DNA from: Deltaproteobacteria bacterium
GTDB taxonomy: Bacteria; Myxococcota; Myxococcia; Myxococcales; 40CM-4-68-19
Assembly: GCA_005879535.1 (NCBI GenBank)
Contig: VBKI01000084.1
Location: 1-36,467, forward strand
Length of the DNA stretch: 36,467 bases
Reading direction: 5' to 3'
The position numbers were made by a program, and so were the translations under genes. The notes under the pieces were generated by a model. That model was not told where the DNA came from. It made no database searches and saw nothing but the letters and a program-made list of their open reading frames with translations. Positions 1,787-6,095 of this stretch are shown here, in pieces; position 1 is the first letter of the stretch; every line of letters begins with the position of its first letter.

Positions 1787-2896
1787 GTGCCGCTGAAGAT
1801 CAAACAGGACCACAGCCGGTTTCGCGAGATCATCCGCGGGCGGATCAAGGAGAACCTTCGCAAGTACATCCAGAAGGGGGAGATGATCGGGAAGAAGGGG
1901 AAGGACCTGATCACCATCCCCGTCCCGTCCATCGACATCCCGCACTTCCGATACGGCCACAAGGACCAGGGCGGCGTCGGCCAAGGCGACGGCCAGCCCG
2001 GCACCGTGCTCGCTCCCGGAGCCGTGGAAGGCGACGGCAAGGGCAAGGCGGGGCAGGGCGAAGGACAGCACTCGCTGGAAGTCGATCTCTCGCTCGACGA
2101 GCTCGCCGACATCCTGGGCGAGGAGCTGGCGCTCCCGCGCATCCAGAGCAAGGGCAAGAAGAACCTCACCACGCCCAAGGTGAAGTACACGGGCGTGCAC
2201 ACGACCGGCCCCGAATCGCTTCGACACTTCAAGCGCACCTACAAGCAGGCGCTGAAGCGGAGCATCGCGTCCGGGACGTACAACCCGCTGATCCCGATCG
2301 TCATTCCGACCCGCGAGGACAAGAGGTACCGGAGCTGGCGGCTCACCGAGCTGCCGCAGTCCAATGCGGTAGTGATCTACATGATGGACGTCTCCGGCTC
2401 GATGGGCGACGAGCAGAAGGAGATCGTCCGCATCGAGAGCTTCTGGATCGACACCTGGCTGCGCGCCAACTACAAGGGCCTCGAGACCCGCTACATCATC
2501 CACGACGCGGTGGCGCGCGAGGTGGATCGCGAGACGTTCTTCCATACCCGCGAGTCCGGCGGGACGATGATCAGCTCCGCCTACAAGCTCTGCCGCGACA
2601 TCATGGACGGGGAATACGATTCCGGCTCCTGGAACATCTACCCGTTCCATTTCTCCGACGGCGACAACTGGAGCGCAGACGACACGCGGACCTGCGTCTC
2701 GCTGCTCAAGGGCGAGATCCTGCCCAAGGTGAACCAGTTCGCGTACGGGCAGGTGGAGAGCCCCTACGGCAGCGGCCAGTTCATCAAGGATCTGCGCGAG
2801 GCCTTCGACGCGGTCGAGAACGTCGCGCTTTCCGAGATCGCCAACAAGGACGCCATCTACAACTCCATCAAGGACTTCCTCGGGAAGGGCTCTTAG
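1787..2896 (+). CDS. yeaH: YeaH/DUF444 family protein (VWA-like partner of PrkA)
   Basis: This 369-residue protein starts at GTG 1787, chosen because GGAGG lies six bases upstream and the N-terminus [19 protein letters not shown] is typical of DUF444. A VWA-like metal site is visible around residue 200 ([14 protein letters not shown], the DxSxS pattern), followed by the characteristic [10 protein letters not shown] and [14 protein letters not shown] segments. A Gly/Lys/Gln-rich low-complexity stretch spans about 65-95. DUF444 proteins are cytoplasmic and co-occur with PrkA and SpoVR in stress and sporulation regulons; their biochemical role is not settled. The TAG stop shares one base with the GTG start of spoVR, so the two are translationally coupled. 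Confidence 0.93.
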
Positions 2897-5598
2897 TGAA
2901 CGAGAACAAGGACACCCGCCTTCCACCGCACCTGAGTGACATCCAGCGCGAGATCGAGGGGTACGCGAAGGGGTTCGGGCTCGACTTCTACGAGACCATC
3001 TTCGAGGTCCTCGGCTACGACGAGATCAACATGGTGGCCGCCTACGGCGGCTTCCCCAACCGCTACCCGCACTGGCGGTTCGGGATGGAGTACGAGCAGC
3101 TCTCCAAGGGATACGAGTACGGCCTCTCGAAGATCTACGAGATGGTGATCAACAACAATCCCTCGTACGCATACCTGCTCGAGTCCAACATGGACGTGGA
3201 CCAGAAGCTGGTGATGGCCCACGTCTACGGCCACGTCGACTTCTTCAAGAACAACTACTCGTTCCAGCACACCAACCGGAAGATGATGGACGAGATGGCG
3301 AACCACGCCACCAGGCTTCGCCGCATCATCGACAAGGTGGGTATCGAGCCGGTGGAGACGTTCATCGACCGGTGCTTCTCGCTGGAGAACCTGATCAATC
3401 AGCACGCGCCGCACTTTCCCGCCAAGAGCCGCGACGAGGTGGTCGAGCAGCCGATCGAGGTTCGCGGGTTCAAGACGGACCGCGAGTACATGTCGCACTT
3501 CATCAACCCGCAGGCCTTCCTCGACGAGCAGCGCAAGAAGCTCGAGGACGAGCGGGCACAGAAGAAGAAGTTTCCCGAGAAGCCGGAGCGCGACGTGCTG
3601 GCGTTCCTGATCGAGCACGCGCCGCTGGAGCGCTGGGAAGCGGACGTGCTCTCCGTGATTCGCGAGGAGGCGTATTACTTCGCGCCGCAAGGGCAGACGA
3701 AGATAGCAAACGAAGGCTGGGCATGTATCGAGAAACACTCGCGAATTTTCACTTCGCGAGGTCTGGTGACGATGGGCGAGTTGGTCGACGGACTGGCCGA
3801 CAAGGTTTCGGACGGCGAGTGCGCGCGACGCGTATGCGACCGCAACATCATAAAGGACCATGCGACCGTCTCGATCCGCACGCGACGTGGCCTCAAGCTC
3901 ACTGGCTCGAACAATCACCGCATCGTCGCGACCAATGGGTCGTGGGTTCGGCTTGATGAGCTTTCTATCGGCGCGCGAGTCCGGGTTTCGGGAGGCGCCG
4001 GCATCTGGCCGCACGACCGCATACCGCTGAGCTGGCGCCCTCCGCGGCGAATGACGCAAAAGGATGTCGCCGATCGCGCCGGCGTGTCACATCAGACCGT
4101 TGCTCGTGCGCTCTCGGGTCTGCGTATTCGCAAGAATCCCGAGCGCGTGGCGACCGCGCTGGCGCTCTATTCCAGCGCTGAGAACGTGGCTCTGCAGGAG
4201 CAGTTGCCTTCCAAACGTGAAGCGATCGCCGTGCCGGATGAGGTAAGCCCCGACCTGGGCGCATTCCTTGGGTACCTGGTCGGAGACGGCCACATCAGCC
4301 GGGTCAAACACCATCTCGGACTCACCACTGCGGACGTCGAGTGCATCGAGCACTTCGCATCTCTGGTCCACGGACTCTTCGGACTGCGTTGCATCGTGAA
4401 GTGGGATGATGGCCGGTACCGCGTGCTGGTTCATTCGGAGAATGTTTCTGACCTCCTCGTCGAGGAATTGGGTCTGACTCACGGCCCGAGTGCACGTCAC
4501 AAGCAGGTCCCAGAGGCCGTTCTTCGGTCCCCAAAGGAAGTCGTCGCTCCGTTCCTTCGCGCGTACTTCGATTGCGATGGCTACGCCGGAAGGCAGGGCG
4601 TCATCCTCGGCACCTCCAGCGAGGTGATGAGCGAGCAAGTGCAACTCATCCTGTTGAACTTCGGCATTCTCAGCCGGCGCAGGCCACAGCAGGACGGGTG
4701 CTGGCACGTGGTGATCGTGGGCGCATCGGCCGAGAAGTTCCTCAACGAGATTGGCTTCGGTCTGTCCCGCAAGCAGCAGGCGCTCACCGACTACGTCCAC
4801 CAGCGGAAGTGGTTCAAGGAAGAGAAGTGGGAAGACGAGATCGTCGAGATCACCCACGGTCGCGCGGACGTCTACGACATCTCCGTTGAGGAAACGCACC
4901 GCTACGCCGCCTGCGGGTTCATCAACCACAACTCGTACTGGCACTCGACGATCATGACCACCCGCGCCCTCAAGGACAGCGAGATCGTCGACTACGCCGA
5001 CCACCACTCGGGCACCATGGGCACGCGCCCCGGCGCCATCAATCCGTACAAGCTTGGCATAGAGCTCTGGCGTTTCATCGAGGATCGCTGGAACAAGGGC
5101 CGCTTCGGCAAGGAATACGACGAGTGCGACGATCTCCGCGCCCGCCGGGCCTGGGACAAGAAGCTGGGCCTGGGCCGCCAGAAGATCTTCGAGGTCCGCA
5201 AGCACTACAACGACGTCACCTTCATCGACGAATTCCTCACCGCTGACTTCGCCGCCGAGCAGAAGCTGTTCGTCTACGGGTTCAACGAGAAGGCGAACCG
5301 CTGGGAGATCCTCGACCGCGAGTTCCAGAAGGTGAAGAAGAAGCTGCTCCAGCAGCTGACCAACTTCGGCCAGCCGATCATCGAGGTGATCGACGGCAAT
5401 TTCGAGAACCGCGGCGAGCTCCTCCTCGCGCACCGCCACGACGGCGTCGATCTGCGCATCGACTACGCGAAGGACACGCTGGTCAACCTGCAGGCGATGT
5501 GGCGCCGGCCGGTAGGCATCGTCACCCGCGTCGACGGCAAGGGCGTGCTCATGCGCTTCGACGGCCGCGACCATACCGACCGCAAGGTCGAGCTCTGA
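2896..5598 (+). CDS. spoVR: SpoVR family protein interrupted by an in-frame intein
   Basis: The precursor is 900 residues, far longer than the usual roughly 500. It starts at GTG 2896, overlapping the yeaH stop; the N-terminus (LPPHLSDIQREIEGYAKGFG) is typical SpoVR. Residues 1-276 are the N-extein, 277-679 an intein, and 680-900 the C-extein. Removing the intein restores QTKIANEGWA/SYWHS, the most conserved His-containing SpoVR motif, and a normal 497-residue protein. SpoVR (YcgB in E. coli) works with PrkA and YeaH in stationary-phase or spore-cortex functions; its reaction is not known. The last N-extein codons before the intein (ATA, GCA, GAA, GCA) are atypical for this GC-rich gene. Without protein splicing the SpoVR core would be disrupted, so function depends on the intein being active. 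Confidence 0.95.
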   Translation: MNENKDTRLPPHLSDIQREIEGYAKGFGLDFYETIFEVLGYDEINMVAAYGGFPNRYPHWRFGMEYEQLSKGYEYGLSKIYEMVINNNPSYAYLLESNMDVDQKLVMAHVYGHVDFFKNNYSFQHTNRKMMDEMANHATRLRRIIDKVGIEPVETFIDRCFSLENLINQHAPHFPAKSRDEVVEQPIEVRGFKTDREYMSHFINPQAFLDEQRKKLEDERAQKKKFPEKPERDVLAFLIEHAPLERWEADVLSVIREEAYYFAPQGQTKIANEGWACIEKHSRIFTSRGLVTMGELVDGLADKVSDGECARRVCDRNIIKDHATVSIRTRRGLKLTGSNNHRIVATNGSWVRLDELSIGARVRVSGGAGIWPHDRIPLSWRPPRRMTQKDVADRAGVSHQTVARALSGLRIRKNPERVATALALYSSAENVALQEQLPSKREAIAVPDEVSPDLGAFLGYLVGDGHISRVKHHLGLTTADVECIEHFASLVHGLFGLRCIVKWDDGRYRVLVHSENVSDLLVEELGLTHGPSARHKQVPEAVLRSPKEVVAPFLRAYFDCDGYAGRQGVILGTSSEVMSEQVQLILLNFGILSRRRPQQDGCWHVVIVGASAEKFLNEIGFGLSRKQQALTDYVHQRKWFKEEKWEDEIVEITHGRADVYDISVEETHRYAACGFINHNSYWHSTIMTTRALKDSEIVDYADHHSGTMGTRPGAINPYKLGIELWRFIEDRWNKGRFGKEYDECDDLRARRAWDKKLGLGRQKIFEVRKHYNDVTFIDEFLTADFAAEQKLFVYGFNEKANRWEILDREFQKVKKKLLQQLTNFGQPIIEVIDGNFENRGELLLAHRHDGVDLRIDYAKDTLVNLQAMWRRPVGIVTRVDGKGVLMRFDGRDHTDRKVEL
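3724..4932 (+). mobile_element. SpoVR intein with LAGLIDADG homing endonuclease (403 residues)
   Basis: The borders are clear: the intein begins with Cys1 (TGT 3724) after EGWA and ends in GFINHN with Ser+1 (TCG 4933), the His-Asn/Ser arrangement of class 1 inteins. Block A is CIEKHSRIFTSRGLVTMGEL. Block B is LTGSNNHRIVATNG, with Ser in the usual Thr position of TxxH and the His present. The C-terminal blocks are VYDISVEETHRYAACGFINHN without gaps. The endonuclease has both LAGLIDADG helices, LGAFLGYLVGDGHIS (Asp at intein residue 188) and FLRAYFDCDGYAG (Asp at 285), 97 residues apart. All splicing and endonuclease residues I can check are present, so both activities look intact. Codons are less GC-rich at third positions than in the exteins, consistent with lateral arrival. 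Confidence 0.93.
4051..4170 (+). other. LacI-like helix-turn-helix embedded in the intein
   Basis: Intein residues 110-149 read MTQKDVADRAGVSHQTVARA and then LSGLRI..NPERVATAL. This is the pattern of a LacI-family DNA-binding headpiece (T..DVA..AGVS..TVSRAL) ending in a hinge-like helix. It sits between splicing block B and the first LAGLIDADG helix, where some inteins carry a DNA-recognition insert. A role in target-site binding by the endonuclease, or in controlling transcription, is inference. Confidence 0.75.
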
Positions 5599-6095
5599 TG
5601 GAAGGGACCGGCCCCGTGATCGAGAAGGGGCTGCGGGGAGGCGTTGCCCGGGCGTTCAGCCTCACCGAGGACGTCGTCTACGCCGGCATGGGTATCCTGC
5701 TCGCATTCAGCGCGGCGGCGCTGCTCGTCTCCGGCGCCATCGAGCTCTGGCGCGCCACGATGGAGGGCGCGCCGCTCAAGGCCGTGATTGGGCTGCTCGA
5801 CAGGACGCTGCTGGTGCTAATGCTCGTCGAGCTGCTCTACACCGTACGCGTCTCCTTCCGGCAGCATGCGCTGTTGCCGGAGCCGTTCCTGATTGTGGGT
5901 CTGATCGCGGCGACGCGCAGGATCCTCGTGGTCACGGCGGAGTTCTCGGTGAAGGGCGAGGCACAGCCCGGACGCTTTCGGGAAGGAATGGTGGAGATCG
6001 GCTTACTCACCGTGATGGTGGTGGCGCTGGTCGGATCCCTCCTGATGCTCCGCCGCCGCGAGCAAGCGGCAAGGCCTGTCGTCGTCGAGAGCTGA
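5598..6095 (+). CDS. PsiE-family (phosphate-starvation-inducible E) membrane protein
   Basis: This 165-residue protein starts at ATG 5598, which overlaps the TGA stop of spoVR (TGATG), so coupled translation is likely. Four hydrophobic segments are visible at roughly 28-48, 62-82, 92-112 and 132-152. The middle signature LVLMLVELLYTVRVSFRQH, then LPEPFLIVGLIAATRRILV, is diagnostic of the PsiE family. The soluble tail is short. PsiE proteins are inner-membrane proteins of unknown biochemical role, induced by phosphate starvation in E. coli. Its place behind spoVR suggests stationary-phase co-expression here. The next gene is convergent, six bases away, with no room for a terminator. Confidence 0.85.
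   Translation: MEGTGPVIEKGLRGGVARAFSLTEDVVYAGMGILLAFSAAALLVSGAIELWRATMEGAPLKAVIGLLDRTLLVLMLVELLYTVRVSFRQHALLPEPFLIVGLIAATRRILVVTAEFSVKGEAQPGRFREGMVEIGLLTVMVVALVGSLLMLRRREQAARPVVVES

Follow-up and report, generated by a model that had tools for sequence, protein, structure and literature searches.

A putative mobile class-1 intein in SpoVR that keeps its splicing residues while its homing endonuclease decays

The spoVR gene in the DNA analyzed here (the window, a stretch of 36,467 nucleotides) is almost certainly interrupted by a mobile class-1 intein of a spoVR-specific lineage, predicted to excise itself from its host protein, to home into intein-less alleles, and to cross between phyla, with an endonuclease that decays while splicing is maintained. 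Inteins are more usual in proteins of DNA metabolism than in a stress/sporulation protein such as SpoVR. Below, G000 designates the window genome, other G numbers designate compared genomes, and L numbers designate loci.

The precursor frame is open throughout, from a GTG start to a stop codon at 5596 to 5598, and encodes 900 amino acids. The Pfam model PF04293 (SpoVR) matches the precursor on both flanks of an insert, in two stretches (435 bits; gathering score, 27), which places the protein in the family, and PF24755 (SpoVR_C) matches it with 27.8 bits. The SpoVR equivalog model NF008737 (PRK11767.1) gives 169 bits for the intein-split precursor, below the curated cutoff of 679, a score that says little because the interruption lowers it. 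A sequence search of the PDB found no relatives of SpoVR, and an AF2 model of an empty SpoVR allele (24 relatives) reached a pLDDT of only 51. The gene order in the window is PrkA, DUF444, and then spoVR, the Escherichia coli counterpart of which is ycgB. Between the PrkA and DUF444 genes (744 to 1786, approximately 1 kb) lies an open frame of 259 amino acids (765 to 1544) with no Pfam match, and a PsiE-like (phosphate-starvation-inducible) gene lies directly 3' of spoVR (5598 to 6095). The features are as follows.

42 to 743, + strand: PrkA C-terminal domain (PF06798, 260.6 bits), conserved context; the gene is probably truncated by the contig start
1787 to 2896, + strand: DUF444 (YeaH-like) gene (PF04285, 302 bits), immediately 5' of spoVR; conserved context outside the intein
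2896 to 5598, + strand: spoVR gene with intein (PF04293, PF24755), the only copy in the source genome at E ≤ 1e-10
2896 to 3723, + strand: N-extein, SpoVR residues 1 to 276, ending in NEGWA (translation, alignment to relatives)
3724 to 4932, + strand: predicted intein of 403 amino acids, Cys1 to His402-Asn403, class 1 with LAGLIDADG endonuclease (Pfam/NCBIfam, 32-member alignment, AF2 and PDB comparison)
3724 to 4023, + strand: N-terminal splicing half, residues ~1 to 100, with Cys1, Thr48, Ser62, and His65 (HINT fold; Z of ~20 to the Mtu RecA splicing domain)
4045 to 4170, + strand: LacI-type helix-turn-helix, residues 108 to 149, in the probable DNA-recognition region of the endonuclease (PF00356, PF01381, model helices)
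4234 to 4803, + strand: LAGLIDADG homing endonuclease core, residues ~171 to 360, with D188 and D285 (PF14528, 70 bits; I-DmoI-like, Z of ~17)
4804 to 4932, + strand: C-terminal splicing half, residues 361 to 403, with D385, H392, H402, and N403 (60/60 conserved; TIGR01443)
4933 to 5598, + strand: C-extein, beginning Ser+1-Tyr-Trp-His, SpoVR residues 277 to 497 and stop (translation, alignment to relatives)

The in-frame insert corresponds to precursor residues 277 to 679. An earlier note, made from the sequence of the window, had placed a full-size intein there, and its borders are exact to the base, with Pfam, NCBIfam, and AF2 in agreement. Its reconstruction was also correct, as removal of the insert gives a 497-residue SpoVR joined as NEGWA/SYWHS. 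The computed masses are 103.6 kDa for the precursor, 44.9 kDa for the intein, as anticipated (45 kDa), and 58.6 kDa for the spliced SpoVR, which the note had put at roughly 57 kDa. Every residue that the note had named is present: Cys1, block B His65 (in S-N-N-H), His402-Asn403, and Ser+1 for splicing and both endonuclease aspartates, D188 (GYLVGDG) and D285 (FDCDG); block F contributes Asp385 and His392. The block B TxxH motif is recognizable, with Ser at the Thr position, which counts against the intein reading. The profile search that the note had proposed finds three models above their cutoffs: PF14528 (LAGLIDADG_3) at 70.0 bits (cutoff, 22.5), TIGR01443 (intein_Cterm) at 19.7 bits (cutoff, 15.6), and PF14890 (Intein_splicing) at 36.3 bits, only just over its cutoff of 35.8, which also counts against the reading. 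Several NCBIfam models built on host proteins that contain inteins (RFC, DnaB, GyrA, and V-ATPase) also match the insert, through their intein segments. With a nucleophile at position 1, blocks B and F/G, a HINT fold, intein-less alleles, and two LAGLIDADG motifs with catalytic Asp, the insert is, as far as sequence and model can identify it, a class-1 intein with a LAGLIDADG homing endonuclease. A class-3 intein, which has a WCT motif and no position-1 nucleophile, was rejected, as Cys1 is present and invariant.

The AF2 model of the intein (32 relatives) has a pLDDT of 92 and a pTM of 0.89. Residues 108 to 149 match PF00356 (2.1e-5; 24.7 bits, under the cutoff of 27) and PF01381 (1.2e-4), the LacI-type match is common to 11 of 32 intein members, and the model places helices in this region at 112 to 119, 123 to 130, and 139 to 149. 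This segment is likely a DNA-recognition module of the endonuclease.

When 462 ten-column windows were ranked by conservation over 80 SpoVR exteins, a sample rich in occupied alleles, the insertion site came first, as the earlier note had supposed, and NEGWASYWHS is thereby marked as the most constrained part of the protein. In one occupied allele (L079 in G616), the residues preceding the intein read NEGHA instead of NEGWA. A bacterial intein-like (BIL) domain, a kind of element found at variable-region sites, was rejected on account of this conservation rank. Insertion into conserved motifs is the rule for inteins (PMC2814812), so the position by itself is no evidence of regulation.

The intein is patchily distributed. 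Within the genus, it is present in G003 and G006, and SpoVR is uninterrupted in G001, G002, and G004; among family-level relatives, G008 carries it and G007 is empty. The orthologue comparison suggested earlier thus yields intein-less alleles at the same codon boundary, and these four and many more empty alleles are continuous exactly at residue 276/277. In the window's phylum, 4 of 195 genomes have the intein, all of them in the window's family. A genome-collection scan recovered the same intein in a Myxococcales metagenome-assembled genome (MAG) and in Oscillochloris sp. ZM17-4, a Chloroflexota isolate genome; this recurrence at one codon boundary in independent assemblies excludes an assembly error at the borders, which had been named as a possible objection. 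Intein matches occur in 43 of 400 sampled Chloroflexota genomes, most of the stronger ones being SpoVR at the same site, and in 35 of the 82 genomes from the order of Oscillochloris. SpoVR inteins were also found in 13 of 284 genomes from the phylum of the Myxococcales MAG and in four of the five genomes of a small separate phylum. We recovered 60 SpoVR inteins at NEGWA/SYWHS (one per genome) from four phylum-level groups. The only carrier outside the window's family in a domain-wide draw of 384 genomes was G765, of the small phylum, and the element therefore looks rare outside the four groups.

A viral origin was considered and rejected, as two scans of viral contigs contained no SpoVR intein; in phage and plasmid collections, the matches were confined to parts of the endonuclease and were distant (<33% identity among the matches listed). 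A LAGLIDADG intein-like gene was observed on Escherichia, Klebsiella, and Enterobacter plasmids of ~100 kb, and some records annotate it as recombinase RecA. Inteins of other host proteins were also encountered. The Chloroflexota genome G269 has a MutS P-loop intein (L074; GPNMSGK/C...HN/STYL) with an endonuclease part unusually near those of SpoVR inteins (1e-36), and in an Oscillochloris genome (G195) inteins also interrupt DnaB and a ribonucleotide-reductase-like protein, which seems to contain two of them (L044 and L046).

Splicing and endonuclease functions appear to have had different fates. Cys1, His65, Asp385, His392, His402, and Asn403 are invariant in all 60 SpoVR inteins, and the N-half splicing residues are conserved in 58 to 60 of them, except Ser62 (49/60), the block B Thr position, where the other 11 have Ala. 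In contrast, both endonuclease Asp-Gly pairs are kept in only 34 of the 60, which indicates that splicing is kept and homing is dispensable. Lengths range from 409 down to 264 residues, and some of the inteins are mini-inteins of 264 to 279 residues. This is the decay expected at the end of a homing cycle. A snapshot of such decay is L067 (G549; 1501 to 2694), near full length with a clearly dead endonuclease (DCDG changed to AGHS). In L066 (G409), the intein frame diverges and stops early in the C-terminal part, through a frameshift that is either true or an assembly error. The window copy itself is probably still an active endonuclease, or has only recently ceased to be one, since dN/dS between G000 and G006 is 0.045 for the endonuclease core (residues 171 to 360), compared with 0.075 for the intein as a whole and 0.026 for the C-terminal splicing half.

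The invariance of the splicing residues is, short of an experimental demonstration, the best evidence that these inteins splice, as failure to do so would leave SpoVR cut in its most conserved motif. We consider it extremely unlikely that the element is an inactive remnant and that the SpoVR gene is broken in the source organism. Splicing here is predicted from sequence, which leaves room for that reading, but every splicing residue is intact and under purifying selection, the frame is open in about 60 loci, and extein dN/dS for the occupied pair G000-G006 (0.046) is no higher than for empty pairs (0.10 to 0.14). Purifying selection on the exteins of occupied alleles is thus at least as strong as on those of empty ones. 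Together with the conservation of the site and the single-copy status of the gene, this suggests that active SpoVR very probably needs splicing, a dependence that the earlier note had proposed.

Four lines of evidence (trees, distance ratios, GC3, and a serine-codon signature) suggest that the SpoVR intein lineage has spread laterally by homing. The alternative is that old vertical inheritance with repeated loss produced the patchiness; it accords with the single intein clade formed by the window's family and by each of two Chloroflexota subgroups, and counts of changes cannot separate losses from gains. We nevertheless regard it as improbable, on several grounds. The median ratio of intein to extein distance is 4.0 in the window's family and 2.5, 1.8, and 1.2 in the other multipair groups, but drops to about 1.0 to 1.45 between groups, where saturation may lower the values. 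For a divergent SpoVR group within Chloroflexota, the exteins lie 4.05 changes per site away but the inteins 1.2. The mini-inteins of the small phylum nest with the full inteins of another phylum with support of 97/91, in a tree whose deep nodes are partly unresolved. Finally, the Ser+1 codon, whose p-values are nominal because related rows are not independent, differs with occupancy: in the window's family it is TCN in all four occupied alleles and AGY in all five empty ones (Fisher P = 0.008), and in the phylum of G196 it is TCN in 13 of 13 occupied alleles, the Ser-coding empties having 10 TCN and 13 AGY (P = 0.0007). In Chloroflexota the codon is AGY in each of the 40 copies. Such a pattern could arise if flanking DNA is co-converted during homing, or if the endonuclease prefers certain target sites, and it suggests that the window copy derived from TCN lineages and not directly from Chloroflexota. 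Mismatch density near the junction gave no clear signal of a co-conversion tract; only the Ser+1 codon stands out.

Consistent with lateral homing, GC3 is 0.76 in the intein and 0.93 in the exteins. The empty G002 (L009) and the occupied G003 (L008) are nearest extein neighbors (97.8%). Between the congeners G000 and G003, exteins are 92.6% identical with a dS of 0.68, versus 69.8% and 2.2 for inteins, an excess that might have arisen because a newer copy replaced an older one, not through separate gains.

We envisage a cycle in which the precursor would be translated and the intein would excise by the standard pathway: Cys1 would undergo an N-S acyl shift, transesterification onto Ser+1 would follow, and Asn403 would cyclize, leaving the exteins ligated as a normal SpoVR of 497 residues. 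The endonuclease would be expected to cut intein-less spoVR at the codons for NEGWA/SYWHS, and repair would copy the intein, plus some flanking extein DNA, into the cut allele. The element could so move between species and phyla as a spoVR-specific lineage; in many hosts the endonuclease would then decay, and splicing would be kept, with SpoVR presumably depending on it.

The earlier note had gone further in suggesting that redox, starvation, or temperature might hold back or trigger splicing and thereby gate SpoVR in the stress response. The host protein does belong to a PrkA-DUF444-SpoVR stress set, in which yeaG and yeaH, the E. coli counterparts of PrkA and DUF444, have a role in the nitrogen-starvation response (PMC4664914). 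Moreover, many lineages retain splicing after loss of the endonuclease, and the mycobacterial DnaB intein sets a stress-responsive precedent (PMC6195587). That system, the oxidative-stress intein DnaBi1 of M. smegmatis, is the model for the idea, but it belongs to class 3 and has a cysteine toggle, whereas the SpoVR intein belongs to class 1. The 32-member alignment shows no invariant cysteine besides Cys1, and the N-extein has none beside the junction, which leaves no conserved residue pair for a redox trap. The intein is also missing from some congeners, and the need for intact SpoVR fully explains why splicing is retained. Conditional gating is thus unsupported and, we think, very unlikely, and we give equally little credence to the related idea that the intein is retained because slow or stress-dependent splicing serves as a posttranslational timer in the starvation or sporulation response.

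With the spoVR-specific mobile intein as the preferred reading, the 60 loci and their empty counterparts offer a well-sampled natural series at one site (empty, full-size, endonuclease-dead, and mini forms in four phylum-level groups), which indicates selection on splicing and not on homing. The matched occupied and empty SpoVR pairs within one genus are material for asking whether inteins affect host stress physiology.

This kind of intein is known; its distribution and decay series we have not seen described before, and in the literature library searched no paper joins inteins with SpoVR or stage V sporulation. InBase presumably lists one such element, "Cau SpoVR" of Chloroflexus aurantiacus J-10-fl. 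The best PDB relatives of the model are inteins with homing endonucleases, namely TliVMA (7qsu/7qss; for 7qsu, Z of 33.6 and rmsd of 2.8 over 311 residues), PI-PfuI (1dq3), and PhoVMA. TliVMA and PI-PfuI likewise combine HINT and LAGLIDADG domains in one chain, but they are archaeal, reside in other host proteins, share 22 to 27% identity with the window copy, and differ in the DNA-recognition region. The middle part of the intein resembles I-DmoI (Z of ~17 over residues 171 to 356). The splicing part has the HINT fold of the Mtu RecA splicing domain (2in0; Z of 20.0, rmsd of 1.9 over 130 residues), which comes from another host protein and site and was solved as the splicing domain alone. The SpoVR inteins of Chloroflexota share the host protein, the NEGWA/SYWHS site, and the splicing residues, and two genomes of that phylum, G315 (5.3 Mb) and G435 (4.7 Mb), have SpoVR inteins of 276 to 277 amino acids. 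The window copy differs from the Chloroflexota mini forms, to which it is ~40% identical, in having a full LAGLIDADG endonuclease.
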